This document shows positions 2,683-23,619 of a DNA stretch of 24,046 bases, piece after piece (positions within the stretch are counted from its first letter, which is position 1; each line of letters starts with the position of its first letter). Under the pieces are notes generated by a model, which did not search any database, was not told the origin of the DNA, and saw only the letters and a list, made by a program, of their open reading frames with translations. This DNA is from a virus. The DNA lies in IMG/VR virus record IMGVR_UViG_3300035698_007044, positions 1 to 24,046 of that record; one strand, 5' to 3'. A program made the translations under genes and the position numbers.

Positions 2683-2693
2683 TTTATTTTTTC

Positions 2694-2708
2694 TTTTTAT
2701 ATATTAAA
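2694..2708 (-). promoter_or_regulatory. Putative late-type promoter element
   Basis: Minus-strand TTTAATATATAAAAA ends 12 bases before the ATG of the membrane-anchored protein gene; it differs at one position from the 15-mer at 1721-1735. Assignment rests on recurrence before same-strand genes only. Confidence 0.35.
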
Positions 2709-2730
2709 AAAGTGGAGTCAATATATTTTT

Positions 2731-5046: not shown

Positions 5047-5066
5047 AATTTTTATATTTTTTTTTA

Positions 5067-6149
5067 CTAATGATAATATCCATTATAGAAATTCCCACCT
5101 AACCAAGTAGTTGAAATATTACCACGTTGTGACCATATATATGCCTCATCAATACCAAAATGTCCATTATTAAATGTACCACCACTCCAATATATTATAT
5201 GATCTTGATTAATTTCATAATTTAAAGGACCTATAACATTACCATTAAAAACACCATCTTTCCATTCTACCTTTATCATAATACTACCATTAACAACACC
5301 ATTATTAAATAAACCATCTAACCAATATGCATTAGTAAGTTCGCCACCATTGAAAACCCCTGTTATCCAAGTAGATGAATATGATTTGAAAAGTAATCCT
5401 TCTTCTTCTAATTGAACTCTTTCGTACTTATATGTTAATCCAGAATTTAATCCATTAAAAATTCCATCATTGAAAGTACCATTATACCAATCTGATCCTA
5501 ACATTATACCATTATTAAAAGTACCACCTGACCAAATACAACTTTCCATTACTCCATTATAAAAAATTCCATCTGTCCAAATTGAATTTTTCATATTTCC
5601 ATTATTGAATTCACCATATAACCAATTACTATTATTAATAAAGTTCCCATTATAAAAACTTCCATTATACCAAGTTGATGTTATAAAATCTCCAGATAAG
5701 AAATTTCCATTGTACCAGCTACTAAATGAAAAAGAGTTACCATTAAAAATTCCATCCCACCATATTGAATTATAGAATAATGAGTTATTAAATGTTCCAC
5801 CTGACCATGTTGAATTTGTAAATGATCCACCATTAAATATTCCATTTCTCCAAGTTGATCCACTAAATATTCCACCATTGAAAACTCCATTTAACCAATC
5901 TTTACCATTAAATTCTCCACTATTCCACACACCATTTATCCATGATGATAAACTATAATATCCTTCATACCATACTCCATATAACCAATTTGTTGATTCA
6001 TTTATAGTTGTACCACTATAACCACCATTATTTATTGTTCCACCTGATATATAACAATCTGTAAAAAAACCATTATTTATAGTACAATCAGTTAAAGTAC
6101 AATCATAAAACCACCCATTATCAATTGTTGAACCAGATATAGATTGATT
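5067..6149. repeat. 45-bp-period coding repeats
   Basis: The DNA encoding the solenoid repeats carries degenerate 45-bp units, visible on the plus strand as recurring ACCATTRAAAAT and CCATTATACCA-like words. Units have diverged in sequence but kept period, so they reflect old tandem duplication rather than recent expansion. Confidence 0.7.
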
Positions 6150-6791
6150 TTTTATTATTATATAACCATATTTATTGTTGTTATTTGTTATATGTGTGGT
6201 ATAACCTGTTGATATATTTAAGGATCTATAATCTAAATCATATTTACCATCAATATTCATAAATTTCATTGATGTTCCTGATAATACAATAGCTTGAATT
6301 AAATTTATATCAAGTGTGGTTTCACTTGAAGGTTCATTCATAATAACATTTTTATAAACAACTCCATCAATATCACCACCTGTAATATTTTGATTTTCAA
6401 CGTATATCTTTGTTAAATAATGATTTAAAATTTCTTTATCAGCAAATTTAGTTTCATATCTTCTATCAATTACTAAAGAATTTTTTTTGTTATTTGTACT
6501 TATGATAGTATATCCTTTCATATATGGATGATAATACCAATCTGTACAACCAGATACTTCTATTACATTATCTAAAACATAATTACTTAATGTATATTCT
6601 ACGCCAGTATCACCAGATAATGCACATATATAAACTATATCCCCAACAACCAAGTTAGAATTTACTTTAGTTTTTAATTCAATATAACCAAATTTTTCTG
6701 TTATAGATGTCATTAATTCTACTGAATTTGCAGATAACAAATATTCTGTTTTATTTTCTTCATTTAATTTAAGATCTATTCTATCTGACAT
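5067..6791 (-). CDS. Repeat-solenoid tail/fibre protein (15-residue WxxGxFxxGxF repeats), 574 aa
   Basis: Residues 1-210 form a non-repetitive N-terminal domain, a likely attachment module. Residues about 215-574 are built from 15-residue repeats of the form S-x-W-x-x-G-x-F-x-x-G-x-F-x-x. Tryptophans fall at 269, 284, 299, 314, 329, 344, 359, 374, then 390, 405, 420, 435, and irregularly at 475, 490, 510, 535 and 563. Such strict Trp-Gly-Phe periodicity indicates a regular beta-solenoid or MORN-like stack, a shape common in phage fibres. An insertion at about 447-471 (charged, LEEEG) breaks the array. The downstream fibre-like gene ends in the same kind of repeat. A virion location and host-surface contact are inferred; the repeat architecture is directly visible. 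Confidence 0.75.
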   Translation of the reverse strand: MSDRIDLKLNEENKTEYLLSANSVELMTSITEKFGYIELKTKVNSNLVVGDIVYICALSGDTGVEYTLSNYVLDNVIEVSGCTDWYYHPYMKGYTIISTNNKKNSLVIDRRYETKFADKEILNHYLTKIYVENQNITGGDIDGVVYKNVIMNEPSSETTLDINLIQAIVLSGTSMKFMNIDGKYDLDYRSLNISTGYTTHITNNNNKYGYIIIKNQSISGSTIDNGWFYDCTLTDCTINNGFFTDCYISGGTINNGGYSGTTINESTNWLYGVWYEGYYSLSSWINGVWNSGEFNGKDWLNGVFNGGIFSGSTWRNGIFNGGSFTNSTWSGGTFNNSLFYNSIWWDGIFNGNSFSFSSWYNGNFLSGDFITSTWYNGSFYNGNFINNSNWLYGEFNNGNMKNSIWTDGIFYNGVMESCIWSGGTFNNGIMLGSDWYNGTFNDGIFNGLNSGLTYKYERVQLEEEGLLFKSYSSTWITGVFNGGELTNAYWLDGLFNNGVVNGSIMIKVEWKDGVFNGNVIGPLNYEINQDHIIYWSGGTFNNGHFGIDEAYIWSQRGNISTTWLGGNFYNGYYH

Positions 6792-6876
6792 TTAAACTAT
6801 TTTTATTTATTCTATATATATAAAAACTTAACAACACTAAAATAATATATAAGAAAAAATAAAATAATCATTATTA
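6792..6876. promoter_or_regulatory. Divergent intergenic region between structural and early-type blocks
   Basis: These 85 bases separate the divergent starts at 6791 (minus) and 6877 (plus). On the plus strand a TAATATATAAG element (6843-6853) sits 23 bases before the start; on the minus strand TATATATAGAATAAATA precedes the solenoid gene. Both resemble the AT-rich elements seen at other starts here. Exact promoters cannot be fixed from sequence alone. Confidence 0.4.
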
Positions 6877-7176
6877 ATGACAGTAGATGAAAAAAAAAAT
6901 ATGATTACAAATAGATTATCTGAAATATTTGTTGAAAAATATGATTTTTTTAAAGATACTATAGATAAATTAAATGACGTTTTTATTAAATATAATGTTG
7001 ATTTTCAATATGATTATAATACTTTTTGTAAAGAATACATTAAAAAATGTAAAGCAGTTATAGATAAAGATCCAGAAATAGATCTTATGAATGATAAGTA
7101 TTTTCTCGTTTATGGAATAATTTCTGCAAGTATGGTAAATGATAAAAATAAAAAATATGGTAAAGAAAATGGATAA
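6877..7176 (+). CDS. Hypothetical protein, 99 aa
   Basis: A small, charged, probably all-helical protein without membrane segment or known motif. It contains a Y-D-Y-N-T-F-C-K segment (about residues 46-53) that resembles Y-D-S-Y-N-N-F-C-I in the next gene, so the two may be diverged tandem paralogues. It is the first gene of the plus-strand block leading to gene 32. In T4 the genes just upstream of 32 are 33 and 59 (late-transcription coactivator and helicase loader); position is suggestive, but I see no sequence basis for either name. The start is the only ATG giving full length. Confidence 0.6.
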   Translation: MTVDEKKNMITNRLSEIFVEKYDFFKDTIDKLNDVFIKYNVDFQYDYNTFCKEYIKKCKAVIDKDPEIDLMNDKYFLVYGIISASMVNDKNKKYGKENG

Positions 7177-7501
7177 AATTTTAGATAAAATGGATGAAAA
7201 TTTTGTTGATAATTATGAAGATTTAATGAAATATAAAAATAATTTCAATAATATTTTACATAAATTAGGATTTATTGGTTATGATTCATATAACAATTTT
7301 TGTATTGATATTAGAAATGTTGCAAAAAATAGAATTATAAAAGAAAAAATCAAATATTTAGATAAGGACACAACATTTTTTTCAGAAGTAATAAATCAAA
7401 CATTAAGATATAAAATCAAACAAAATAGATCATATGAAAAGAAGATTATGAACTATTTTGATGATGACGAATTGATTGATATTATCAAAGAGGACCTGTA
7501 A
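7169..7501 (+). CDS. Hypothetical protein, 110 aa
   Basis: A small, helical, lysine-rich protein ending in an acidic-hydrophobic tail (FDDDELIDIIKEDL). I chose the ATG at 7169 because it creates an ATGGATAA overlap with the preceding stop, the same arrangement seen at 12342; in-frame ATGs at 7139 and 7157 are alternatives giving 120 or 114 residues. A Y-N-N-F-C segment near residue 40 resembles the preceding protein. Acidic-hydrophobic C-termini are used by T4 gp33 and gp55 to contact the sliding clamp, and this gene sits just upstream of gene 32. That is only a positional hint; I would leave it unnamed. Confidence 0.6.
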   Translation: MDKILDKMDENFVDNYEDLMKYKNNFNNILHKLGFIGYDSYNNFCIDIRNVAKNRIIKEKIKYLDKDTTFFSEVINQTLRYKIKQNRSYEKKIMNYFDDDELIDIIKEDL

Positions 7502-7567
7502 AAATTACTATATAGATATGTATATTTTTTTAAAACTTTTGAATTAAGATTATATATAATAAAGACA

Positions 7568-7661
7568 ATTTTAAGCTTAAAATAATATTGTAAAATTAAA
7601 TTAAATTAAATGAAGGCAATTAAATTAAATTAACTTTCATCAAAAAAAAATTAAAAGCTTT
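7568..7661 (+). promoter_or_regulatory. Gene 32 leader with TTAAA repeats, palindrome and hairpin
   Basis: The leader has a 16-bp perfect palindrome (ATTTTAAGCTTAAAAT, 7568-7583). Three tandem TTAAA pentamers follow at 7596-7610, two more at 7620-7629 and one at 7651-7655. ATGAAGG (7610-7616) can pair with CTTTCAT (7634-7640), with one G-U pair, to close a loop containing the second TTAAA cluster. T4 gp32 represses its own mRNA by binding a 5' pseudoknot and then A/U-rich repeats up to the start codon, so this is a candidate analogous operator. The function is inferred. Confidence 0.5.
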
Positions 7662-8639
7662 ATGGCAACAAAAAATGACGATTATTTAGACGACAGTTTC
7701 CTATTTGACGGATCTGACGAATCACAACAACAAGAATTATCTTTTCTAGACAAAGAAAAGAGAAACCAAGATGGACTTTTCAGACCATCACTAGACCAAG
7801 CAAAAGATGCTCGCGAAGGTTACAAAGGAACAATAAGATTTCTTAGAAATTTATCAAGAGAAGGTAAGGTCGGCCCAGCCGCAATAGAAAAACATATACA
7901 CTATGTTGACTTACCAAATCATCAAGATTTAAGAGGTTATTATGAATGTGCTAAAAATTATTCACCAAAATGTGACTTATGTACATTTTATTGGAAATTA
8001 GCAAAATCAAACAATCAAGCTGATGTTGAAAAAGCCGATTTAATCGGAAGATCAACTAAGTTTTATAGTTATGTAATGATTATGGAAGACGAACAAAATC
8101 CAGATTTAGTAGGTAAAATAATGATTTTCTCATATGGATATCAAATTAAAGAAAAAATCGAAGCCGAAAGAAAAGGTGAATTAACTGGTGATAAAGTTAA
8201 TATTTTTGATTTCGTAAACGGTAAAGATTTTAGATTAATTATCAAAGAAAAAACAAGAACAGGTAGTAACAAAGCGTTACCAACTTATGAATTTAGTCAG
8301 TTTCTTGGCGAATCACCAATGAAAATTTATAACGAAAAGAATAAAAAATTCGTAGCTATTCAAGTTGATGACGATGGTAAAATTTCTGATAAAAGATGGC
8401 AAACTAAAATTAAAGAAACTCTTCTTGGAAGAGACGAAAATGTGAATATTGAAGATCACATGGCTAAAGAATGGGATGATGAAATGTCATCAAGAGTAGA
8501 AAAAGTAATTGCTGTTCTTTCTGGTGAAGAAGTAGATTTTGCTGAAAAATCAATATCTAAAGCAAAAGATGAACCAACAGATATATCACTTGATGATGAA
8601 GAATCAATGGACGATTTTTTCGATTTCTCCGATGATTAG
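7662..8639 (+). CDS. 32: T4 gp32-like single-stranded DNA-binding protein, 325 aa
   Basis: This is the phage replication ssDNA-binding protein, which coats unwound template, coordinates the replisome and protects recombination intermediates. Diagnostic features are in T4 order. A basic N-terminal region with a GTIRFLRNLS strand (56-65) is followed by a zinc-site candidate with Cys at 96, 104 and 107 (YYECAKNYSPKCDLC) and His at 78, 80 or 87. A GKIMIFSYGYQIKEKI segment (151-166) matches GKVFKYRFGKKIWDKI of T4 gp32. The highly acidic C-terminal tail (DDEESMDDFFDFSDD) recruits partner proteins in the family. Length is close to T4's 301. Codon use is richer in C-ending codons than its neighbours, consistent with high expression. 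Its TAG stop overlaps by 4 bp the stop of a convergent homing endonuclease gene. The leader suggests autogenous control. Confidence 0.9.
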   Translation: MATKNDDYLDDSFLFDGSDESQQQELSFLDKEKRNQDGLFRPSLDQAKDAREGYKGTIRFLRNLSREGKVGPAAIEKHIHYVDLPNHQDLRGYYECAKNYSPKCDLCTFYWKLAKSNNQADVEKADLIGRSTKFYSYVMIMEDEQNPDLVGKIMIFSYGYQIKEKIEAERKGELTGDKVNIFDFVNGKDFRLIIKEKTRTGSNKALPTYEFSQFLGESPMKIYNEKNKKFVAIQVDDDGKISDKRWQTKIKETLLGRDENVNIEDHMAKEWDDEMSSRVEKVIAVLSGEEVDFAEKSISKAKDEPTDISLDDEESMDDFFDFSDD

Positions 8640-9433
8640 TCATTGATTTCCAACAACTTATCGAACTCTTTATAATCTTTATCGATTATAAATAAGAAGT
8701 CAAATCCACTATTTATAGTGGATTTTTCTTTTTGTAGATTTTGTTTTAATTCTACATCATATGTCCAACAGGATTTAATTTCTATAACAAGATTTAGGTT
8801 TTTTATAAAAAAATCTGGAAAATATTTTCTATTTATATTTTCATAAAAATAATCAATTGTTCCTTTAAAATTTTCAATATCTATATTTTTTTCTATACAA
8901 TGATCGATAAAATCTTTTTCATAACTACCTCTATAATGAAGTCCATTATAATGTTTAAGTATATATCCATTTTGTTGTTTTAAATGTATTTCTGGTACTT
9001 GCGATGTATATTCAACACCATATAATTCTAACATTTTTTCCTTAAATTCTTTATTACAATTACATAAGAATAATTCTGTGCCATTGGTTTTCATTGTTTC
9101 TATTTTCTTATCTTTTACTTTTTCGGTTTGGGATATATTTTTAACATTATATTTTTTTAAATTTGTTTTTTCTCTTTTCGACAGATTGCAAATCTTACAG
9201 GTATATTGATTATTAGGATCTCTTTTAATATAATTGTTATAGTTAAGATATTTTACATATTTTTCAGTATCACAAATATCACATTTACATAAGATTTTTT
9301 TATGACTTCCTTTTGTTAAATCAGAAACTTTCACTTTAAAATATACACCACATTTAATATCATAACCTTTATTTTTATAATATTTGAAAATTTTAGCATT
9401 TCCCATTAATTCTGTGTATTTATTAACAATCAT
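8636..9433 (-). CDS. Free-standing homing endonuclease, zinc-finger plus PD-(D/E)XK type, 265 aa
   Basis: A likely DNA endonuclease that spreads its own gene. Residues 49-54 (C-K-C-D-I-C) and 79-82 (C-K-I-C) form a four-cysteine zinc ribbon. Residues 93-150 carry two helical repeats of the type seen in phage homing enzymes ('KKYNVKNISQTEKVKDK' and 'LYGVEYTSQVPEI'), which may bind DNA. The C-terminal part contains YFPDFFI (Asp207) followed by VIEIKSCW (Glu218-x-Lys220), the D...ExK signature of a restriction-fold nuclease, as in the Vsr-like homing enzyme group. It lies tail-to-tail with gene 32, overlapping its stop by 4 bp, and its start is overlapped by a small RHH gene. Insertion next to a conserved replication gene is typical of free-standing phage homing genes. 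Confidence 0.75.
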   Translation of the reverse strand: MIVNKYTELMGNAKIFKYYKNKGYDIKCGVYFKVKVSDLTKGSHKKILCKCDICDTEKYVKYLNYNNYIKRDPNNQYTCKICNLSKREKTNLKKYNVKNISQTEKVKDKKIETMKTNGTELFLCNCNKEFKEKMLELYGVEYTSQVPEIHLKQQNGYILKHYNGLHYRGSYEKDFIDHCIEKNIDIENFKGTIDYFYENINRKYFPDFFIKNLNLVIEIKSCWTYDVELKQNLQKEKSTINSGFDFLFIIDKDYKEFDKLLEIND

Positions 9434-12656: not shown

Positions 12657-13697
12657 ATGAAAAAAGATATAGGTAATATGGGCACACATGGATGTGATTT
12701 TGATTCAAATGGAGTTTTTTTAGGTAAATTAGCTACTGGTGATTTTTATAAAATGAAAAAAGATAGTAAAATATTTGTATCTGGACATAATGGTTTGGTA
12801 GGTAGCGAAATATTAAAAACGTTAAAAAATCAAGGATATACGAATATTATAACACGATCACATAAAAAATTAGATTTAACAAATCAAATAAAGACTAAAA
12901 AATTCTTTAAGAAAAATAAACCAGAATTTGTTTTTGTTGCTGCTGCTAAAGTGGGTGGTATAATTGGAAATTCAAAAGCACCTGCTGAATTTGTTTATAA
13001 TAATTTACAAATTCAATTAAATGTTATACATTATGCTTATGAATATTGTGTTAAGAAATTGGTATTTTTAGGATCAAGTTGCATTTATCCAAAAATGTGT
13101 CCTCAACCAATTAAAGAAGATTATTTAATGACAGGATTATTAGAATCATCAAATGACGGATATGCAGTTGCTAAAATAGCGGGAATAACAATGTGTAATA
13201 AATATAATTTCCAATATGATACTAAATTTATATCATTAATGCCAACTAATCTATATGGTTCATCTGTTGATAATTATGATTTAGAAAATTCACATGTTTT
13301 ACCAGCAATGATTAGAAAATTTCATGAAGCTAAAAAGAAAGGAAAACCACAAATGGAATTGTGGGGAACAGGAAATCCAATGAGAGAATTTTTGCATGTT
13401 AAAGATATGGCTGAATCTGCAGTATTTTGTATGAATAATTATGAAGATTATGAACAACATGTTAATATAGGAACAGGGGTTGATGTGACAATTAAAGAAG
13501 TTGCTGAAATTGTTAAAAAAGTTGTTGGTTATGAAGGTGAAATAGTTTGGGATACGGATAAACCTGATGGCACACCAAGAAAATTGCTTGATGTATCTAA
13601 AATAAATGATTTAGGTTGGAAACACACAATAGAAATCGAAGATGGTATTAAATCAACATATAAAGAATTATTAGAAAATCACCCATTATTTAAATAA
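12657..13697 (+). CDS. fcl: GDP-L-fucose synthase (NAD-dependent epimerase/dehydratase family), 346 aa
   Basis: This bifunctional 3,5-epimerase/4-reductase converts GDP-4-keto-6-deoxy-D-mannose to GDP-L-fucose with NADPH. Visible features: the nucleotide-binding loop GHNGLVGSEI near residue 42, the family-typical AAAKVGGIIGNSKAP, the catalytic Ser in LGSSCIYP and the Tyr-x-x-x-Lys pair in DGYAVAKIAG, then MPTNLYG, ELWGTGNPMREFLHVKD and a substrate domain ending near 'LLENHPLFK'. The family norm is about 310-320 residues. Here the canonical start corresponds to Met33 (12753, MKKDSKIFVSGH), so 32 extra residues (with THGCDFDSNGVFLGKLATGD) precede it. I kept the longer form because it leaves only 9 bases to the previous gene. 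No GDP-mannose dehydratase is present here. Likely role: phage or host surface glycan modification. Confidence 0.9.
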   Translation: MKKDIGNMGTHGCDFDSNGVFLGKLATGDFYKMKKDSKIFVSGHNGLVGSEILKTLKNQGYTNIITRSHKKLDLTNQIKTKKFFKKNKPEFVFVAAAKVGGIIGNSKAPAEFVYNNLQIQLNVIHYAYEYCVKKLVFLGSSCIYPKMCPQPIKEDYLMTGLLESSNDGYAVAKIAGITMCNKYNFQYDTKFISLMPTNLYGSSVDNYDLENSHVLPAMIRKFHEAKKKGKPQMELWGTGNPMREFLHVKDMAESAVFCMNNYEDYEQHVNIGTGVDVTIKEVAEIVKKVVGYEGEIVWDTDKPDGTPRKLLDVSKINDLGWKHTIEIEDGIKSTYKELLENHPLFK

Positions 13698-13888: not shown

Positions 13889-14256
13889 AAAATATTATAA
13901 TAATAAAAGATAAAATGGTAATATTACCTTATATTAAAAAGATTTCTAATATAAGAGTAGATATGCATAGATTGTCATTTTATTTTGAAGTAGAAAGTAT
14001 GGTAACAGATGATGTTTTAATTTATTGTGATAAATTTGATAATGAATTAACACCATATACAGGATTGTTATTTCTCAGTTCTATACCTGATGGAGATTTT
14101 GTAGAAAGATATAAAATATCAGATAAGAATAATTTTTCTATTGATGAAGATGTTTTATATAATGACTTAAAATCAAAATATGACGATTTAAATAATAAGA
14201 GGGAAGTGTTAATTAGTAAATGGGATAAATCTTTATCAAAGATAAAAAAGATTTAG
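13885..14256 (+). CDS. Hypothetical protein, 123 aa
   Basis: The N-terminal half is beta-rich (MKNIIIIKDKMVILPYIKK, RLSFYFEVESM, DDVLIYCDKF), and the C-terminal 45 residues form a charged helix likely to be a coiled coil (DLKSKYDDLNNKREVLISKW). Function unknown. I chose the ATG at 13885 because it forms an ATGA overlap with the preceding stop; an in-frame ATG at 13873 is an alternative adding four residues. The TAG stop overlaps by 4 bp the stop of the convergent gene on the minus strand (TTAG), just as gene 32 does with its convergent neighbour. It is the last gene of this plus-strand run. Confidence 0.65.
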   Translation: MKNIIIIKDKMVILPYIKKISNIRVDMHRLSFYFEVESMVTDDVLIYCDKFDNELTPYTGLLFLSSIPDGDFVERYKISDKNNFSIDEDVLYNDLKSKYDDLNNKREVLISKWDKSLSKIKKI

Positions 14257-14525
14257 AAATGATTTTTAAGTTTATTATCTTCAATATGCCAGTGATCTAT
14301 AGCATTATTTTTATATACTACCTTAACAATATCATTAAATAAGGACATTTGAGCATTTTCTACTTGTTCAATAGCTTCTTCTTCATAATATCCATCATCC
14401 ATCAATTTTTTGATTATCATCTTTTTAAGATATTCATCATTATTAAATTTATTTGGTGCTTCTTCTTCGTAATCAAAGTCTTCTTCTTTGAAATTGAAAT
14501 CTTCAAATAGTTTTAGTTTTTTCAT
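14253..14525 (-). CDS. Small acidic protein with MKxxKLFE leader, 90 aa
   Basis: The N-terminus is MKKLKLFEDF followed by NFKEEDFDYEEEAP, a two-part signature shared with the gene at 21039 (MKLKKFENFDFDEEDFDFEE). The first part resembles the capsid-targeting sequence of T4 internal proteins, and L-F-E fits the (L/I)-x-E cleavage rule of the T4 gp21 prohead protease. The remaining 60 residues are a short helical domain (LKKMIIKKLMDDGYYEEEAI) that may be an embedded adaptor; function unknown. Its ATG overlaps the stop of the polyphosphate kinase-like gene (ATGA), so the two are translationally coupled. Capsid targeting is inferred from the signature alone. Confidence 0.7.
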   Translation of the reverse strand: MKKLKLFEDFNFKEEDFDYEEEAPNKFNNDEYLKKMIIKKLMDDGYYEEEAIEQVENAQMSLFNDIVKVVYKNNAIDHWHIEDNKLKNHF

Positions 14526-15667
14526 TTAATTTCATATATAATTTCTGGATATACTTTTAAAATTTTCTCATTTTTATTTTCATAAGGAATTTTATTTAGA
14601 ATATATCTTAATGAATTTAACCATCCTAATGGTTTATCGTCCATATTGACTACTGCCCAAGGCATTGTGGGTGTAGATGTTTCAGAAAACATTCTATTGA
14701 TATAAGGATCGAACTCACTCCACTTATCTACAGCCCTTAAATCATTTGGACTAAATTTCCAAAATTTAGTTGGACTTGCTTTTCTTTGATCAAATCTATT
14801 TAATTGTGTTTCTTTATTGATTGATAACCAAAACTTTATGTGAATAATATCTTCGTCAGCAATTTTTTGTTCAAATGGAATAACATCAGTCATGAATTTT
14901 TCGTACTGTTTTTCAGTACAATAACCCATAACAGGATCATTTACAGCTCTATTATACCAACTTCTATCCATAAGAACCATTTGACCATTTTCTGGAAATA
15001 CTTTTTCATATCTATGAAACCAATTGCGTTGCTGCCACTTAGTTGGTATACCGAAGTCTTGGTAAATAATATTTCTACCCAAAGGTGCTGCAAAGAAATT
15101 TCTTAATATAAATCTTGAAATTGATCCTTTACCACCTGTATCTCTACCATCAAAGGTAATAAGAATCTTTTTGTTATTCTCTTTTATCCATAGAATTAGT
15201 TTGGTTAATTCAGCATATAAAGCAGGTGATTCTTTATCTAAAATATCATAAGATGTTTTATTTCTAAATTTAGATTTAATTTTCTTAACTTCTTTAAAGG
15301 CAGGATTTTCGTAATTTGTATAATCTTTATCAAATATTTTCTTATATCTACGTTGAATAGATTCTATATAACTATCAAAATAATTTAAAGCATCGTCTTC
15401 AGACATTTTTAAATTAACAGATAAAGATTTAAGAAATGCATTTAAATTCATTTTATTAAATAGATCTTTATCTATATCTTTTTTAATAATTTTCTTTAAA
15501 GATTTAATATCATAATCTTTATTAAATTCATTTTTATAAATATTAAATAAATCAGATATTTCTTCTAATGTATAATCAACATTGTCTAATTTATAATCAT
15601 TAGTATCATTTGTAGATGTTGTTGTAAAACCTGGATATAATCCTTCAAAAAATTTAATGTACTTCAT
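14522..15667 (-). CDS. ppk2: Polyphosphate kinase 2 (PPK2) family protein with MKxxKFFE leader, 381 aa
   Basis: PPK2 enzymes transfer phosphate between polyphosphate and nucleotides (for example making ATP or GTP from ADP or GDP). The catalytic domain spans about 155-360. Walker A is TFDGRDTGGKGS (171-182), Walker B is VLMDRSWYNRAVND (231-244, Asp234), then VMGYCTEKQYEKF, IHIKFWLSINKETQLNRF, and the lid RKASPTKFWKFSPNDL (295-310) with its basic residues. All key residues are intact. The 150 residues before it are a helical extension; the first eight are MKYIKFFE, the leader motif shared with unrelated proteins here. If that is a capsid-targeting tag, the kinase could travel in the virion and act at the start of infection; otherwise it may boost nucleotides during replication. 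It is coupled by ATGA to the small acidic gene. Confidence 0.88.
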   Translation of the reverse strand: MKYIKFFEGLYPGFTTTSTNDTNDYKLDNVDYTLEEISDLFNIYKNEFNKDYDIKSLKKIIKKDIDKDLFNKMNLNAFLKSLSVNLKMSEDDALNYFDSYIESIQRRYKKIFDKDYTNYENPAFKEVKKIKSKFRNKTSYDILDKESPALYAELTKLILWIKENNKKILITFDGRDTGGKGSISRFILRNFFAAPLGRNIIYQDFGIPTKWQQRNWFHRYEKVFPENGQMVLMDRSWYNRAVNDPVMGYCTEKQYEKFMTDVIPFEQKIADEDIIHIKFWLSINKETQLNRFDQRKASPTKFWKFSPNDLRAVDKWSEFDPYINRMFSETSTPTMPWAVVNMDDKPLGWLNSLRYILNKIPYENKNEKILKVYPEIIYEIK

Positions 15668-15740: not shown

Positions 15741-15762
15741 TTAATTATACCAAAAAATATTG

Positions 15763-15770
15763 TATCTTTG
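15763..15770 (+). promoter_or_regulatory. Bacteroidetes-type -7 promoter box (TATCTTTG)
   Basis: TATCTTTG is a perfect match to the TAnnTTTG -7 element used by the Bacteroidetes primary sigma factor. It lies 43 bases before the methyltransferase ATG, giving a leader of about 37 bases. No clear TTTG -33 partner is present about 20 bases upstream. A host-type promoter implies expression early in infection, or independent of phage factors. Confidence 0.65.
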
Positions 15771-15813
15771 CAGTATAATTATAATAAGACTAAAAATATT
15801 AATATATAACCAT

Positions 15814-18384
15814 ATGGGAAATTTTATAGATACGCTAAAAACATCAAGAAATGAAAAAGATGTTGAAAATAACTATCGCGGACACTTTAATGCTGTATTA
15901 GGTAGATTTGCAAAATCAAAAAATGATAATATTGGTACTATTACTTCACAGTATAATACTGATGGATTTTTAAAATATAGAAATAAAGATGAAAAAGTAA
16001 ATATTAATTGTTTGTTTGAATTTAAGAAAGATGTCGAATTTATGGATTTAACTGAACGTTCCAGGGTTATAATTCAATGTTTATATTATATGAAAACGTT
16101 TGAAAAAAATGGTGACATCATACCTACTTCATTATTTATTGCTGATATAAATCAATATTTTATTATTAATACAAGTATCCTCATTGGATATTTAGATTAT
16201 GATTTAAATTGGAAAATTGCACCAAGTAAAGCAGGATTTCAAAATAATGAATTATTAATGAAAATAATTCAAAATGATGAACTTAATAAAAAAATATATG
16301 TTGTTGATGTTGATGAAAAATTCAATACAATGGAAATTTTAAAAAAAATCAATAATATAACAAAAGGATTCCAATCCAAATTAAAAATTACGTCATATAA
16401 TGTATATAAAATCTATAATTCTTTTAATAATAGAGTATTAAAAGAAAAAAACTTATCAGTAAATGACTCAGTAAATTTATTTATCCATACATTAATTGAT
16501 AGAGACAACAATTATCCACACCCAACCAAAAAGAATATTTTGGTTACTAAAGGATTTGGGGAAATAAAAATAAATACTTCTAATTGGAATTCATATAAAA
16601 ATCATTTCAATACTGTATTATCACCAAGAGAAAAGGAAATTATAACTGCTACCCAAGATAGACTTATTGAAGATGAAACAAGAAAAAGAAGTGGTGAATT
16701 TTTCACACCAACAATTTGGGTTGATGAATCACATAAAATGGTGACTGAAACATTAGATAAAGATTGGAAAAATAAAATTGTATGGGATAATGCCTGTGGG
16801 ACAGGTAATTTAACTCGTGATTATAAGTTTAAAGAATTATATTCTTCTACACTTTTAAAAAGTGATATTGATACTATGGAACAAGCAGGATATAATCCAG
16901 AATCAACTAAATTTCAATATGATTTTTTAAATGATGGAATAAATGATGATGGTGAAATCGATGTGGAAAATGATACTAAATTACCATATGGTTTAAAAAA
17001 TGCAATTTTGAATGGTAAAGAAATCTATTTTTTTATTAACCCACCTTATGGTACAGCAAATGATCATGGTGAAAAAAATAAAAAAGGAACTGCTTTAACT
17101 AAGACAAATTTGTTGATGAAAAAGGATGATTGGGGTGCATCATCACAACAATTATATGCACAATTTTTATATAAAATAAATAAGATACACGAAAAGTATA
17201 ATTGTATTATTAAGTTATGTCTTTTCAGCCCACCTTTATTATTAAGTGGTGGATCATATAAAAAATTCAGAGATAATTTTTTCAAAAACTTTAATTTTAA
17301 AACTGGTTATTTGATTAATGCAAATAATTTTTCAGATGTAAGTGATTGGGGATTGAGTTTTTCCATATTTGAAACTGATAAAGAACATAAAACAAATGAT
17401 TTTAATTACATAGTTAAAGTCAATGAATTGGAAATTATTGATAAAGAAATTAAAAATATTTATAATTTAGATAATGGTATAAGTGCGAGTAAATGGGTTA
17501 GAGAAAAAGTAAAAAATAACAAAAATATATTAAAACCATCTTTAAATGGACCATTAAAAGTAAAAGATAGTAAAACTTTAATTTCGGAAAATAGTTTAGG
17601 TTATATGCACAACAATGCTAATAATGTTGGATTCAACCCTACTTATGTAGGAATTTATTCTTCTACATTTGCATCTGCACATGGGTTATCTATCACTAAA
17701 GACAATTATATGGATGTAGTGTCATTATTTCTTGCTCGGAAATCTATTCCATCCAATTGGATAAATCAAAAAGATGAATACATGGCACCAACTGAAGAAG
17801 TTCAAAATTCAGATAAATATAAACAATTCAACAACGATGCTATTGTTTATTCATTATTCAACACAAGTTCAAATCAAAGTTCAATGAGACAAGTTGAATA
17901 CAAAGATAAACTTTGGGATATTAAAAATGAATTCTTCTGGATGAACAATGAAGAAATGTTAGAACTTGCAGAAGAATATAAATTTGATGAATTATATAAA
18001 GACGCAAGAACATCTAAAGACAGATATGTTTATGACTTATTAAAATCTACACCTTTAAGTCCAGATGCTAAAGAACTTTTAGAAATGTCTAAAGAACTTA
18101 TTAGAAAATCTTTTGAATGGAGAAAAATTATGCATCAATCAAATCCAGAATATCATTTAAATGCATGGGATGCTGGTTGGTATCAAATTAAAAAAATTCT
18201 AAATGAACACTTTAAAGAAGAATATAAAATATTTGTTGAAAAATATAAGAAATTCGAAAATAGATTAAGACCACAAGTATATGAATTAGGATTTCTAAAA
18301 AGTGATGAAGTTGTTGAACCACATGGTATAGGTATAATGGAAAAATCAGGTAATGAACAATTGTGTTTATTTCCAGAAATGTAA
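15814..18384 (+). CDS. Type IIG-like N6-adenine DNA methyltransferase with N-terminal nuclease-like domain, 856 aa
   Basis: It probably methylates adenine in a specific DNA site. The methyltransferase core has the FTP motif (RKRSGEFFTPTIWVDE, 290-305), SAM-binding motif I (DNACGTG, 325-331) and catalytic motif IV (NPPYG, 409-413). Residues 20-130 resemble a restriction-fold nuclease: Asp50 (NTDGF) and Glu69-Phe-Lys71 in LFEFKKD give a D...ExK signature. The C-terminal 350 residues would hold target recognition. Length and order match single-chain type IIG restriction-modification enzymes; Eco57I-like is the nearest comparison. I chose the ATG at 15814 because an earlier in-frame TTG would place the promoter box inside the gene. 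In a phage it could shield its own DNA, or also cleave unmodified DNA. The cargo gene at 18453 follows after 68 bases. Confidence 0.82.
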   Translation: MGNFIDTLKTSRNEKDVENNYRGHFNAVLGRFAKSKNDNIGTITSQYNTDGFLKYRNKDEKVNINCLFEFKKDVEFMDLTERSRVIIQCLYYMKTFEKNGDIIPTSLFIADINQYFIINTSILIGYLDYDLNWKIAPSKAGFQNNELLMKIIQNDELNKKIYVVDVDEKFNTMEILKKINNITKGFQSKLKITSYNVYKIYNSFNNRVLKEKNLSVNDSVNLFIHTLIDRDNNYPHPTKKNILVTKGFGEIKINTSNWNSYKNHFNTVLSPREKEIITATQDRLIEDETRKRSGEFFTPTIWVDESHKMVTETLDKDWKNKIVWDNACGTGNLTRDYKFKELYSSTLLKSDIDTMEQAGYNPESTKFQYDFLNDGINDDGEIDVENDTKLPYGLKNAILNGKEIYFFINPPYGTANDHGEKNKKGTALTKTNLLMKKDDWGASSQQLYAQFLYKINKIHEKYNCIIKLCLFSPPLLLSGGSYKKFRDNFFKNFNFKTGYLINANNFSDVSDWGLSFSIFETDKEHKTNDFNYIVKVNELEIIDKEIKNIYNLDNGISASKWVREKVKNNKNILKPSLNGPLKVKDSKTLISENSLGYMHNNANNVGFNPTYVGIYSSTFASAHGLSITKDNYMDVVSLFLARKSIPSNWINQKDEYMAPTEEVQNSDKYKQFNNDAIVYSLFNTSSNQSSMRQVEYKDKLWDIKNEFFWMNNEEMLELAEEYKFDELYKDARTSKDRYVYDLLKSTPLSPDAKELLEMSKELIRKSFEWRKIMHQSNPEYHLNAWDAGWYQIKKILNEHFKEEYKIFVEKYKKFENRLRPQVYELGFLKSDEVVEPHGIGIMEKSGNEQLCLFPEM

Positions 18385-18452
18385 AACTAAAAAGATTTAC
18401 CTAAAAAACATAAACCATTTATTTAAAATCAACTATATAATTATAAATAAAA

Positions 18453-19898
18453 ATGAAAAAAATGAAAAGATATTTTTTAATAATCATCACATTAATATTA
18501 TGTGGTTTAACTACAGTGGGACAAACATCCAATTTTGAAACAAGGTATATGCAAACTCATGAAAAGTACAAGCAAAGTTTAGATCCTGTTTCATATATAA
18601 ATATAGAAAAAAATGTCCGTGACGGTTATGTTTTTATGATGGATGTTGCTACTAATTATCCCGTATCGGATAATCCCATGAAATATTTTTATGAATATAC
18701 TCCAGAAGGATATAAACAAAACACATTAGTAAAGGTACTTAATAACGGCAATTGGGAAATTGATAGTTACGAAATTTGTACATTTGATATAGATGGGAAT
18801 ATACTAACTTCTTTATGGAAAATATGGGTAGATGGTTCTCTTGAAAATGATACTTATACTACATATTCTTATGATAATGGTAATATACTTACTTATCTTA
18901 ATCAAGATTGGGATAATAATTGGGATAGTATTAGTCGAGGCACATATATTTATAATTCAAGTGGTAAAGTATTATCTTTTTTAAGTGAAGTGTGGGAAAA
19001 TAATTGGATAAATAATTCATTTGAAACATATACTTATGATGAATTTGGTAATATGATAACCGCTGTTGGTAGTATGTGGGAAAATGGTAATTGGGTAAGT
19101 GATCGTCAACATACTTATACTTATGATGATAATAATTTAATTATGGGTATTACTGAAATTTGGGATGAAACGTGGATAAATTTTTACAAAGAAACTTACA
19201 CTTATAATATTGCAAATAAGAGAGATACTTTTGTTGGGGAATATTGGATTAGTGATATTTGGGTTTATTCTAATAATATCACTTATTCTTATGATGAATT
19301 ATATTTTTTATCAATGACTGTTGAACAAATATGGGATAATGATTGGGTGAATACAAATAGAGAACAATATTTTTATGAAACTTATGGTGGTTTGGAAACT
19401 ATGTTGTCTGAAATATGGGATATAACATGGGTAAATTCAACACTATTACAAAATACATATGATGATTATGGTAACACCACTGACGGTGAGTTTTTTAATT
19501 GGATTGATGATAATTGGGATCATACTATTGATGGGGTTATTAAAATATACTATAATTATAGTTTGAATATAGAATATTTCACAGGTTATCTTACAGAAGT
19601 TACTTATTCATCTATATATGTTGATGTTGATGAAAACATAATAGATAATAGTTTTACTTGTAATCCTAATCCAGCAAAATATACAACAATAATAACAACA
19701 AACTTAAAAAGTCAATCTAATACAGAAATTGACTTATATAGTTATACTGGTGAAAAGGTTCAAAATATATTTAGTGGTCCTTTAGTTGGTATTCATTCTT
19801 TTGAAATATCAGTTCAAAATTTACCTGTTGAAATGTATATAGTTAGAATGATTACAAATAATAAAATAAAATCTTTAAAATTAATTATTGTAAAATAA
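18453..19898 (+). CDS. Secreted repeat protein with type IX secretion C-terminal sorting domain, 481 aa
   Basis: Residues 1-24 are a signal peptide (MKKMKRYFLIIITLILCGLT, then TVGQ). Residues about 91-368 hold roughly ten imperfect 27-29-residue repeats containing W-(D/E)-x-x-W-x-x-x followed by T-Y-x-Y-D-x-x-G-N, a YD-like beta repeat found in flavobacterial surface proteins. Residues about 399-481 match the type A T9SS sorting domain: CNPNPAKYTTIITTNL, EIDLYSYTGEKVQNIFSG, GIHSFEISVQNLPVEMYIV and a terminal KSLKLIIVK. Such proteins cross the inner membrane by Sec and the outer membrane by T9SS, then are released or attached to the surface. It probably shares a transcript with the methyltransferase gene, 68 bases upstream. 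A phage-borne T9SS client would alter the host surface, for example by blocking superinfection or adhesion; that role is inference. Confidence 0.88.
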   Translation: MKKMKRYFLIIITLILCGLTTVGQTSNFETRYMQTHEKYKQSLDPVSYINIEKNVRDGYVFMMDVATNYPVSDNPMKYFYEYTPEGYKQNTLVKVLNNGNWEIDSYEICTFDIDGNILTSLWKIWVDGSLENDTYTTYSYDNGNILTYLNQDWDNNWDSISRGTYIYNSSGKVLSFLSEVWENNWINNSFETYTYDEFGNMITAVGSMWENGNWVSDRQHTYTYDDNNLIMGITEIWDETWINFYKETYTYNIANKRDTFVGEYWISDIWVYSNNITYSYDELYFLSMTVEQIWDNDWVNTNREQYFYETYGGLETMLSEIWDITWVNSTLLQNTYDDYGNTTDGEFFNWIDDNWDHTIDGVIKIYYNYSLNIEYFTGYLTEVTYSSIYVDVDENIIDNSFTCNPNPAKYTTIITTNLKSQSNTEIDLYSYTGEKVQNIFSGPLVGIHSFEISVQNLPVEMYIVRMITNNKIKSLKLIIVK

Positions 19899-19904
19899 TT
19901 TTAT

Positions 19905-20201
19905 TTATTTATCAATTTGTTTTATATAATCAATTAATTGTTGGACATAATTTTTAGAATTAGCCACCCATTTTAGATCTTGTGTTTTGGTATCATAATC
20001 TTCATCAGACATAATTTCTCTCATATAATCACCATAAGGTCTATCTACCATTTCAACGAATTCAATATCACTACCCCAGTTACTATCCATTTTTATGTGA
20101 ATATATTTCCATTCACCTGGTGATGTTTCATTCATTTCCTTTTCAATTTTATCAATATCAGGAATATTTTCAGATTGTTCGTTAAATTTTTTGATCTTCA
20201 T
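19905..20201 (-). CDS. Small protein with MKxKKFNE leader, 98 aa
   Basis: It starts MKIKKFNEQSENIPDID, a looser version of the leader motif. The body has a beta segment (GEWKYIHIKMDSNWGSDIEF) and ends with DLKWVANSKNYVQQLIDYIK, similar in rhythm to the C-terminus of phage Ead/Ea22-like proteins ('F-I-A-x-A-R-x-x-V-P-x-L-L'). That resemblance is weak and gives no function. The stop is 6 bases from the convergent stop of the T9SS cargo gene, and it begins 4 bases after the stop of the nuclease-like gene, so it is the last gene of a minus-strand operon. Confidence 0.65.
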   Translation of the reverse strand: MKIKKFNEQSENIPDIDKIEKEMNETSPGEWKYIHIKMDSNWGSDIEFVEMVDRPYGDYMREIMSDEDYDTKTQDLKWVANSKNYVQQLIDYIKQIDK

Positions 20202-20205
20202 AATA

Positions 20206-21021
20206 TTATATATCTCTTTTTAAATTTTTAGGAATTTTTATTATATTTTTATCAAATTCAATAGAATTAGAATTACTAAACATATAAAATTTATTTTCTT
20301 TTTTATTATAAAAAGAAAAATAATCAACTTTATAAGGTTTAATGCCGTTTATATAAAAGATATTGTGAGTATCTGTTTCTTCCATTCTTGTGTAAGCTTT
20401 TGTTTGAATTGTTTGATTTTTATGTTTACCATAGGAAAATCTAATATCAATTCCTTTTAACATATCATCTTTCTCTCCAAATTTTGCTTGTTTGACATCA
20501 GTTATTCCTTTATTCATTAATCTTTTAATTGTTTCTTTTTCTGCATCATCACCAATTTTACTTGTTCTATCCATTGCTTTTAATAATTCTGGTAAAATAT
20601 CTGAATGTGGATGAAAAATTCTATCTTTGTATTCATCTAAAATTTTAAAAAGTTTTTGTAGTTCATTAGACCAAGAACTTAAATAAAAATCAACTTGAGT
20701 AAAATTTTTAATATCACCATTAACTATTTTATTATTTATCCAATTTACTAATATACATATTGCAATATAATTTGTATTTAAATAGTTTAATAAACTTCTA
20801 TTTTCATTATCTAATTTGTGACCAGTATTATAAACACCACCTTTTTCTATTGTATTTACCCATTTCCCTCTTGGATCATATACAGATTTTAATATTTTTA
20901 AAATATGATTTGGTAAAGTGATCTTATCTCTACCTCTACCAACTTCAAAATCAAATAATCTTTTTTTATTAGTTGCGAAAAATCCACTTCTACAATTATA
21001 TGTTACTACGTTTTCTCTCAT
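20206..21021 (-). CDS. Mrr-like PD-(D/E)XK nuclease candidate, 271 aa
   Basis: The N-terminal 150 residues are helical and unrecognised, with several Trp and Asn (LVNWINNKIVNGD). Residues about 155-240 carry a likely restriction-fold core: a helix with Glu161 (KIGDDAEKETIKRLMNKGI), Asp192 in GIDIRF and Gln206-Thr-Lys208 in TIQTKAY, followed by a strand pair (VDYFSFYNKKENKFYMF). The D...QxK arrangement is the one used by Mrr-type nucleases. This would make it a DNA-cutting enzyme, possibly acting on host DNA or recombination intermediates. Alternatives are an inactive nuclease-fold protein or an unrelated family. It lacks the MKxxKxFE leader of its neighbours and follows the small acidic gene after 17 bases. 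Confidence 0.6.
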   Translation of the reverse strand: MRENVVTYNCRSGFFATNKKRLFDFEVGRGRDKITLPNHILKILKSVYDPRGKWVNTIEKGGVYNTGHKLDNENRSLLNYLNTNYIAICILVNWINNKIVNGDIKNFTQVDFYLSSWSNELQKLFKILDEYKDRIFHPHSDILPELLKAMDRTSKIGDDAEKETIKRLMNKGITDVKQAKFGEKDDMLKGIDIRFSYGKHKNQTIQTKAYTRMEETDTHNIFYINGIKPYKVDYFSFYNKKENKFYMFSNSNSIEFDKNIIKIPKNLKRDI

Positions 21022-21038
21022 TATTTTTTATTTATTTT

Positions 21039-21431
21039 TTACCCTGGTGTATTTATTAATTTATTAAGATTATTAATAGTATATTCTATTTTATCTTTAA
21101 GTTCCACATTTTCTATTGGTATATAGTATTCTATATCTTCTGAATCAAATAATTTTCCTTCTATTTCATTATATAAATCTTTACTATATTCTGTTTTCAA
21201 CATATTATTCCAAGTTGATAATGGCATTTTTGAAGTTGGACCTTTACCATTAATATAATCTAATTTAACAATCTTATTATTCTTATATATTATTTTCTCT
21301 TTTGAAACACCAGACATCATTTTAAAAAAATTACTAAAATGAATATTGAAAAATTTTTCAAATGATTCTTCTTCTTCAAAGTCAAAATCTTCTTCATCGA
21401 AATCAAAATTTTCAAATTTTTTTAGTTTCAT
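21039..21431 (-). CDS. Small acidic protein with MKxKKFE leader and DFDxEEE stretch, 130 aa
   Basis: The N-terminus (MKLKKFENFDFDEEDFDFEE) combines the leader motif with an acidic-aromatic stretch almost identical to that of the gene at 14253. The rest (residues 28-130) has a lysine-rich beta segment (KEKIIYKNNKIVKLDYINGK) and a C-terminal helix (LKDKIEYTINNLNKLI). Function unknown. Its ATG overlaps the stop of the nucleotidyltransferase C-half (ATGA), so the genes are translationally coupled. The shared signature on different C-terminal domains suggests the signature is a portable tag rather than part of a domain. Confidence 0.7.
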   Translation of the reverse strand: MKLKKFENFDFDEEDFDFEEEESFEKFFNIHFSNFFKMMSGVSKEKIIYKNNKIVKLDYINGKGPTSKMPLSTWNNMLKTEYSKDLYNEIEGKLFDSEDIEYYIPIENVELKDKIEYTINNLNKLINTPG

Positions 21432-22345
21432 ATCAGTTCTTTAAATTTTTCACATTCAACTCTTCTAATTTCATTACCAATTTCTCTCCCAGTTATTCCA
21501 GCATCCATTAAATCTTTAGCATTAGTTGTTTTTTCATAATTAACGAATGCATTTATATATTTATCATTAATACCTTTTAATTTACCAAATTCTATAATTG
21601 TATTATTATCTATATCAATTTCTCTCTTTTTTGAATATAATGCATTTATATTAAATTCTCTATTATTTGGATCAAATGTTTTTTCAATATTTTGATCATT
21701 AAGAACATCTACCAATTTTAAAAGAAATATAACATTACTTGATATTGTACCTGGTATTTTAAATCCTTGTACTAAAGTATCATGTAATTTATTTGTTGGT
21801 TGATTATCAGAAAATAATTGAGTAAAAATAATTGAAATATTAAAAGTTCTGAAAAAATTTGTATTTATATGAATATCAGAAAACATTCTAACAAACATTT
21901 TATAATCTTTTAACAAATTTAAATACATTATCCAAGCATTCATATTTTTATTTTCTTCAGCCCACATTAACATACCTGGTTTATTTGTAGAACCATAAAA
22001 TTCATCAATAATTCTTTCCTGTGATACATCATCAGCTTCAGATATACCATTTAATCTATTATCAGATTTAATTGCAAGGGCGGTGTCCTTGTCGATTTTA
22101 AACCCATTCCTAGCACTAAATCTCATACATCTAAGAATACGCAACCGATCCTCTTTAAATCTATCTCTTGGATTTCCAACTGCTCTAACAATTCCTTTTT
22201 CAATATCGGATATTCCACCAACATTGTCTATTATTTTTTCTTTATTAATATCATAATATAAAGAGTTGATCGTAAAATCTCTACGTAGTACATCATCTCT
22301 TATTGTAATATGGGATCCAGTTTCTACATTTGTTTTCTTTCTCAT
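21428..22345 (-). CDS. C-terminal half of split CCA-adding-type nucleotidyltransferase, 305 aa
   Basis: It starts just before the family motif RRDFTINSLYYD (21-32) and continues with VGGISDIEKGIVRAVGNP (42-59), EDRLRILRCMRFSARNGF (65-82, the base- and tRNA-recognition helix motif) and the helical body typical of tRNA nucleotidyltransferase / poly(A) polymerase proteins. It lacks the catalytic head, which is encoded at 23293-23619. The two halves sum to 413 residues, close to intact bacterial enzymes, and about 26 residues would lie between YR and RRDFT across the break, as in intact relatives, so nothing essential is missing. Its ATG lies in the last codons of the homing endonuclease gene (ATGA overlap), so it depends on that gene's translation. 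The two chains could associate into a working enzyme for tRNA 3'-end repair or RNA tailing. Confidence 0.82.
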   Translation of the reverse strand: MRKKTNVETGSHITIRDDVLRRDFTINSLYYDINKEKIIDNVGGISDIEKGIVRAVGNPRDRFKEDRLRILRCMRFSARNGFKIDKDTALAIKSDNRLNGISEADDVSQERIIDEFYGSTNKPGMLMWAEENKNMNAWIMYLNLLKDYKMFVRMFSDIHINTNFFRTFNISIIFTQLFSDNQPTNKLHDTLVQGFKIPGTISSNVIFLLKLVDVLNDQNIEKTFDPNNREFNINALYSKKREIDIDNNTIIEFGKLKGINDKYINAFVNYEKTTNAKDLMDAGITGREIGNEIRRVECEKFKELI

Positions 22346-23274
22346 TTATTCGTATATTTTTTCCAAATATAACCAGATGCACTATTTCTCTGATTATTAA
22401 TTACAGATGTTATATTTCCTTGTGATATATTTAATTCTTTAGATGCTTCTGTGGTTGATTTCCATGTTTTAATATAATTCATATTCATATCATATTGATT
22501 TATTTTATATCTATTATGAGGTATAGAACCCTTTTTTGATAGTGAAATTTTTAATTTAGTTTCTTTTGTATGTTTTTTTCCTAAATTTCTTTTATTTCCT
22601 ATTAAACTTTCAGAAATTTTTCTTTTTGTTTCATTTGAAACAATTTTATTTTTATGAAACTCACTTAATTTTTTTTTTCCTTCTTTTGTTATCTTCTTTT
22701 TTCCTTTTTGACTTTTTGATTGTTTTTCTTTTATTAAGATAGATCTTTCTTTACCATATAAAATATCATATGATTTCCCTTTTTTACTTGAATTATTCTT
22801 AAGTTTCATTTTCATAGCTTTATCATATCCATAGTATTCTATATTTGTTTTTCCTCTTCTACCATTTCTTTTACTACATTCACTTAATTTTTTTCTTGTT
22901 TCTTCTGAAATAATTGTTGAATAAGCACCGTCTCCACCTGTTGTTAAATTAGTTAATGGACCATTTTTATAAATGATACATCCTATTTTAGATATAATTT
23001 CTTTTTCTTTATTATATGATTCAGTTTCATTCAAATTTTCATATAATTTTATTATATGAGGTTGTGAATTATTAGATAATATATTTTTTATAATTTTATT
23101 TTTTTCATTCTTTTTGTTTAGACTTCTATTATATAAATGATATTTGTATCTATTATTTTTTCCTTTACCCACATAAAATGGTTTATAATCAAATTTTAAA
23201 TTATCATATTTATATTTTCCTTCAATTAAAGGATTTAAATATATATAAACATAAAAGATTTTATCATTATTCAT
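22342..23274 (-). CDS. GIY-YIG homing endonuclease with NUMOD3/NUMOD1 DNA-binding repeats, 310 aa
   Basis: Residues 8-115 form a GIY-YIG nuclease: VYIYL (9-13), FYVGKGKNNRYKYH (33-46), NKEKEIISKIG (88-98, likely catalytic Glu) and TNLTTGGDG. Residues about 122-250 carry lysine-rich NUMOD3-type repeats (SEETRKKLSE, SNETKRKISESLIGNK, TKETKLKISLSKKG), and 257-308 a NUMOD1-like helix-turn-helix (KTWKSTTEASKELNISQGNI, then SGYIWKKY). It stands between the N- and C-halves of the nucleotidyltransferase, 18 bases after the first and overlapping the second by 4. There is no room for a group I intron core, so it is a free-standing gene that split its host gene. It probably cuts uninterrupted alleles at that position and spreads by repair. 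Confidence 0.88.
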   Translation of the reverse strand: MNNDKIFYVYIYLNPLIEGKYKYDNLKFDYKPFYVGKGKNNRYKYHLYNRSLNKKNEKNKIIKNILSNNSQPHIIKLYENLNETESYNKEKEIISKIGCIIYKNGPLTNLTTGGDGAYSTIISEETRKKLSECSKRNGRRGKTNIEYYGYDKAMKMKLKNNSSKKGKSYDILYGKERSILIKEKQSKSQKGKKKITKEGKKKLSEFHKNKIVSNETKRKISESLIGNKRNLGKKHTKETKLKISLSKKGSIPHNRYKINQYDMNMNYIKTWKSTTEASKELNISQGNITSVINNQRNSASGYIWKKYTNK

Positions 23275-23292: not shown

Positions 23293-23619
23293 TTATTTAT
23301 CGTAAATATCTTTTCTATAAGAAGCAATTTCTATTCCTTCAGGTGTTTCTTCGGTGAAAACTCTAATAACTGCAAAATGTCTACCTTGTAGTCCTAATCT
23401 ATATTTATCTCTTAATAATTTTATGATTACTTGTGGTTGAGCATTTGTAACTAGATCATAATCATGTGGTTCTACACCTGTTATGAAATCTCTTACTGCA
23501 CCACCGACCACGTAAAGATCATAACCATTATCTGTAAATATTTGTGATATTTGTTTTACATCAACAGGTATATCCATTTTCTCATGTAGTACTTCTTCAA
23601 ATAATTTTATATATTTCAT
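23293..23619 (-). CDS. N-terminal catalytic head of split CCA-adding-type nucleotidyltransferase, with MKxxKLFE leader, 108 aa
   Basis: Residues 1-9 are MKYIKLFEE, the leader motif. The head domain follows: VVGGAVRDFITG (37-48, nucleotide-binding Gly motif with the conserved Arg-Asp) and HDYDLVT (52-58, the metal-binding Asp53-x-Asp55), then GRHFAVIRVF and GIEIASYRKD. It stops after IYDK, just short of the loop leading to RRDFT, which is now in the gene at 21428. In intact enzymes both parts are one chain. Alone, this half has the catalytic carboxylates but no base- or tRNA-recognition region. Its ATG overlaps the stop of the upstream gene (ATGA). The leader tag suggests virion packaging of the first half only; the second half lacks it. 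Confidence 0.82.
   Translation of the reverse strand: MKYIKLFEEVLHEKMDIPVDVKQISQIFTDNGYDLYVVGGAVRDFITGVEPHDYDLVTNAQPQVIIKLLRDKYRLGLQGRHFAVIRVFTEETPEGIEIASYRKDIYDK

Follow-up and report, generated by a model that had tools for sequence, protein, structure and literature searches.

A linear viral DNA fragment of 24,046 bases, a whole IMG/VR record that was analyzed over its full length (the window), encodes a predicted cargo protein of the T9SS. The best explanation, to which we give a probability of about 0.7, is that a huge phage, a relative of the 735-kb Mahaphage, took up a Bacteroidota surface-protein gene and has kept it as a working phage gene. Capture is suggested by the genuine phage genes on both sides and by the match to full-length proteins of T9SS-positive Bacteroidota. 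That the gene still works is suggested by a sorting domain diverging about as much as those of the bacterial orthologues, and by the T9SS proteins of related complete phages, one of which occupies a conserved place.

Inspection of the sequence shows an intact reading frame of 481 amino acids (18453-19898, + strand), at the coordinates given in an earlier note on this DNA. Its first 23 residues (18453-18521, +) form a predicted Sec-type signal peptide, identified by inspection as MKKMKRYFLIIITLILCGLTTVG with the cut before Q24, a K/R n-region and a hydrophobic core at residues 8-19. V22 and Q24 are invariant among the closest relatives, and a helix at residues 5-21 of the predicted structure coincides with this region, which bears out the signal peptide proposed earlier. 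It is followed by an N-terminal region (18525-18746, +) that sequence comparison shows to be shared with the bacterial relatives (Y32-M33, K40, L43-D44-P45). A match to a Cor superinfection-exclusion PHROG (E 0.009) begins in the signal peptide and was dismissed as signal-sequence similarity. The T4-like late promoter TATAAATA at 18442-18449 is not claimed, as such sites are no commoner than in shuffles. A search for a terminator-like site found none, and a PDB sequence search with the protein gave no match.

The central part of the protein (18747-19568, +) is built of 28-residue repeats of the form W-x(3-4)-W ... TYTYD-xx-GN. This period gives an autocorrelation peak of 0.19, compared with 0.15 for the best of 1000 shuffles, and eight W-x(3-4)-W units can be distinguished, with degenerate ones on their N-terminal side. 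In the AlphaFold2 model (33 sequences, mean pLDDT 85), hairpins form a long antiparallel sheet, approximately between residues 59 and 389, and the C-terminus folds as a beta-sandwich of its own, so that the repeats are predicted to form one unbroken antiparallel beta-sheet of the RHS/YD type. Foldseek matches the model to RHS proteins with E-values down to 2e-11, but with low TM-scores. Although close relatives exceed the cut-offs of both TIGR01643 and PF05593, the cargo protein reaches only 11.1 bits with PF05593 (cut-off 22) and has no match to TIGR01643; it is therefore “YD-like” only. The “about ten YD-like repeats” reported earlier are accordingly a fair count with the right resemblance, but they are not YD repeats by the domain models.

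The T9SS type A sorting domain is located at residues 401-481 (19653-19895, +). TIGR04183 matches residues 405-479 with 26.3 bits (cut-off 23), covering positions 3-71 of the 72 in the model, and PF18962 scores 25.6 bits, just below its cut-off of 27. Of the two models which the earlier note had suggested running, the type A model passes its cut-off and the type B model, TIGR04131, has no match to the cargo protein. In the predicted structure, a beta-sandwich occupies the very C-terminus (residues 401-479, block pLDDT 84-93), and the Foldseek matches for it include the C-terminal domain (CTD) from Tannerella forsythia mirolase (8qb1; E 0.012 at 26% identity). The PNPA motif near the start and the terminal IIVK are present, and the L-x-x-G-x-Y motif reads LPVEMY, the usual Gly being replaced. 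Against the captured-gene explanation stand the scores of the sorting domain, which clear one cut-off narrowly and narrowly miss the other, and the absence of the usual Gly. The CTD is 40-44% identical to those of the relatives, compared with 43-48% among the bacterial orthologues, and the address label is therefore not clearly decaying faster than in bacteria.

The surroundings of the gene are those of a phage genome. Four reading frames between 1786 and 8639 are collinear with the 735-kb phage LR756501: a phage protein (1786-2682, -; 34.9% identity), a repeat-containing, probably structural protein (5067-6791, -; 38.6% over 98% of the length), a small protein and a gp32-like single-strand DNA-binding protein (7662-8639, +; PF08804, 52% identity). 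The left flank holds a PPK2-like polyphosphate kinase (14522-15667, -; PF03976), with 40-43% identical genes in LR745206, LR756501 and LR756502, and the right flank the C-terminal part of a CCA tRNA nucleotidyltransferase (21428-22345, -), 37% identical to that of LR745206 over its full length. Both have their best matches in these three phages, which are taken to be Bacteroidota Mahaphages of 634-735 kb. Immediately upstream of the cargo gene, separated by 68 nt, lies a phage gene of 874 amino acids (15760-18384, +), methylase-like by inspection, with a 45% match over 833 aa in a viral contig (L002); another contig (L003) carries a near-identical start of it. The kinship with the Mahaphages rests on the gene order and proteins held in common with clade members, namely the synteny with LR756501 over 1786-8639 and the best matches of the gp32, PPK2 and CCA genes, and this synteny and the two flanks confirm the phage genome around the cargo gene. 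By this sequence comparison, the record is a genuine phage fragment, from a probable huge relative of the 735-kb Mahaphage. No terminase gene was recognized in the 24-kb fragment. The largest Mahaphages of Al-Shayeb et al. have genomes of 634, 636, 642 and 735 kb, which were manually completed and have Bacteroidetes as predicted hosts (PMC7162821).

Several other features of the fragment were observed. The CCA gene is split in two, with profile positions 1-71 in the reading frame at 23293-23619 (-) and the remainder in 21428-22345; a GIY-YIG/NUMOD homing-endonuclease frame (22342-23274) lies between the parts. The CCA enzyme of LR745206 is a single frame of 390 aa, and an Rfam intron search at the split gene found none. 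An N-terminus of the form MK-x-IK-x-FE recurs on proteins that are otherwise unrelated, PPK2 and the CCA enzyme among them (frames 14253-14525, 14522-15667, 19905-20201, 21039-21431 and 23293-23619, all on the - strand), and reading frames of LR756501, LR756502, LR745206 and LR756504 begin in a similar way. T4 internal proteins have prohead-targeting leaders, and by analogy this N-terminus might be such a leader. A DUF7487 protein (8636-9433, -) has weak similarity to phage endonuclease I and lies on the strand opposite to the gp32 gene, whose end it overlaps. A phage-borne GDP-L-fucose synthase-like gene (12657-13697, +) is another possible surface-altering gene. A search for relatives of the gene downstream of the cargo gene (20206-21021) found none.

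The closest kin of the cargo protein are bacterial. A search of bacterial genomes with a degenerate DNA motif derived from the repeat returned 119 stretches, among which the real repeat arrays belong mostly to Bacteroidota, Ignavibacteria and neighboring phyla. Across the signal peptide, the N-terminal region, the repeats and the CTD, the identity to the nearest full-length relatives is 48-52%, and the two of them with fully read contigs are set among bacterial genes. In a maximum-likelihood tree, the cargo protein falls in a Bacteroidota clade with four of these relatives (support 99/99). Since these relatives are chromosomal proteins of T9SS-positive Bacteroidota MAGs, we regard the cargo gene as a captured host surface-protein gene, and the host itself is inferred from them to be a member of the Bacteroidota. 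In two Bacteroidota MAGs, the relative's gene is followed by that of a second conserved secreted protein (L164 and L165; MKKFNRFLSLTFLAI...), which is absent from the 24-kb window.

The earlier note had proposed searching other phages for the sorting domain. Five related huge phages, chosen by the similarity of their gp32 to that of the window and without regard to T9SS, all contain TIGR04183 matches above the cut-off (LR756501, LR756502, LR745206, LR756504 and LR756500). The same search gave none in the 12 other phages tested: Bacillus phage G, phiKZ, Aeromonas CC2, cyanophage S-B68, Flavobacterium FCL-2, Sinorhizobium Phosso, Cronobacter GAP32, two other huge metagenomic phages and three Lak phages. 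The cargo bodies of the five differ, comprising a FISUMP domain, a propeller and small proteins. LR756502 and LR745206 share an orthologous and syntenic cargo of 186/199 aa (32% identity), which is bordered by a DnaJ-like gene on one side and by large opposite-strand genes on the other; a search of viral contigs gave no relatives for the 186-aa protein of LR756502. In a cargo protein of LR756501 (L010), the sorting domain is found mid-protein (aa 84-155) and followed by the FISUMP domain, an unusual place for a sorting signal. SprA, the T9SS translocon, is absent from all five phages and is encoded by the MAGs that contain the closest bacterial relatives; therefore, the machine would have to be supplied by the host. 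It is possible, though we hold it only tentatively, that the largest known Bacteroidota phages keep a set of non-homologous proteins addressed to the host T9SS as an inherited trait with a standing function, such as surface takeover or superinfection exclusion.

Taken together, the domain model, the fold, the phage context, the phage-like codon composition and the like genes in complete relatives support the earlier proposal of a phage-encoded protein that is predicted to be a client of the T9SS of its host. Its export by that system is a prediction from anatomy, and a well supported one. The protein would be made during infection, cross the inner membrane by Sec and be recognized by the host T9SS through its C-terminal domain. 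It would then be displayed on the outer surface, or freed from it, in the form of a flat, elongated beta-sheet of YD-like type. The most likely benefit would be that the exterior of the infected cell is covered or changed, so that competing phages might adsorb less well or adhesion might be altered. The earlier note had named superinfection exclusion, altered adhesion and protection as possible roles. In Flavobacterium columnare, mutations in sprA and gld genes arise under phage attack and confer phage resistance (PMC9233685). As T9SS genes thus matter for phage entry in this species, superinfection exclusion is a plausible benefit by analogy. With T9SS-dependent surface features tied to phage entry (PMC9233685), superinfection exclusion via T9SS would be testable in a laboratory Flavobacterium. 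If the explanation is true, it would be routine among huge Bacteroidota phages to borrow the outer-membrane secretion system of the host for showing phage proteins, and infected cells would commonly come to differ in this way from uninfected ones on the outside.

The benefit might equally lie with the host cell. An exported protein could serve host physiology in a long infection or carriage, by adhesion, gliding or the binding of nutrients or particles, and play no part in phage competition. This differs from the captured-gene explanation solely in the benefit and is a sub-reading of it. Nothing about the bacterial relatives, which are surface proteins of the usual chromosomal kind, hints at a role in phages, and glycoside hydrolases occur among the cargoes of Cryophage (PMC7468147). 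We consider superinfection exclusion and a host-side benefit, such as adhesion, about equally likely, and would put a purely physiological role at somewhat under even odds.

A captured gene could also be passenger DNA, of no use to the phage and heading to decay, and some of the results fit this. No close relatives of the cargo gene were found in other viral contigs, named phages and plasmids gave just weak or CTD-only matches to its protein, the 28-residue repeat was not found in the five related huge phages, and the CTD is without its usual Gly. However, the frame has stayed open over 481 codons at 26% GC, and its GC3 of 0.156 lies in the range of the phage neighbors (0.08-0.18), compared with 0.245 in the nearest bacterial relatives. 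The gene therefore has the composition of the phage, and its residence there is not very recent. Moreover, the divergence of every region is about that seen among the bacterial orthologues, and other T9SS cargoes have been retained in related phages, one of them orthologous and syntenic. We thus regard mere passage as unlikely.

Much less probable is a virion protein, decorating the tail or head, in which the sorting domain is idle for export. Such a role is suggested by LR756502 and LR745206, where the T9SS-type gene adjoins large structural-looking genes; a Sec signal peptide would, however, remove the protein from the cytoplasm, where virions are built, and full-length bacterial relatives outside phages bear the same signal peptide and CTD. 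An assembly join of phage and host DNA was rejected as highly improbable: a single record spans the gene, and the contig L003, which comes from a different sample and is nearly identical to the left-hand portion of the window, stops inside the upstream gene, but phage genes flank the cargo gene on both sides, its GC3 is phage-like, unlike that of the nearest bacterial copies, the host genes found reach at best 52% identity, and complete huge-phage records carry the same kind of gene.

The captured surface-protein gene has precedents in kind, and the statement in the earlier note that no well-described example is known does not hold. Cryophage encodes T9SS type A cargo for which superinfection exclusion has likewise been suggested (PMC7468147), and cluster-2 crAss-BACON phages contain T9SS sorting domains, one of them within a BACON reading frame (PMC6949934). 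In addition, a BFVD entry bears the title “Secretion system C-terminal sorting domain [uncultured Caudovirales phage]”. In its main text, the paper on the huge phages is silent on T9SS and states only that proteins localized at the surface may alter the susceptibility to other phages (PMC7162821). The recurrence of T9SS cargo in complete huge phages, with an orthologous pair, was not found in the literature searched and goes beyond the earlier reports.

As in the fragment described here, the type A sorting domains of Cryophage are thought to use the host machine and are joined to variable cargo bodies (PMC7468147). That different phage has an endoglucanase, a GH39 enzyme and a PA14 protein as its cargoes, whereas the present cargo is a surface protein with YD-like repeats, encoded by a relative of the huge phages of 634-735 kb. 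The crAss-BACON phages also carry T9SS sorting domains in Bacteroidota phage genomes, in another lineage and on other cargo, since BACON modules take the place of the YD-like repeats (PMC6949934). Four chromosomal Bacteroidota proteins (L158, L159, L166 and L167, in genomes G004, G003, G007 and G011) are 48-50% identical to the cargo protein and share its length, signal peptide, N-terminal region, repeats and CTD; two bacterial loci (L026 and L060) differ from the phage gene in their bacterial neighbors and higher GC3. With the RHS/YD-repeat proteins (PF05593, TIGR01643; PDB 8qja and 4igl), the cargo protein has the repeated beta-hairpin sheet in common, as predicted by the model. In contrast to them, it falls under the RHS cut-off with low global TM-scores, has no shell, core protease or toxin domain, and ends in a T9SS CTD.
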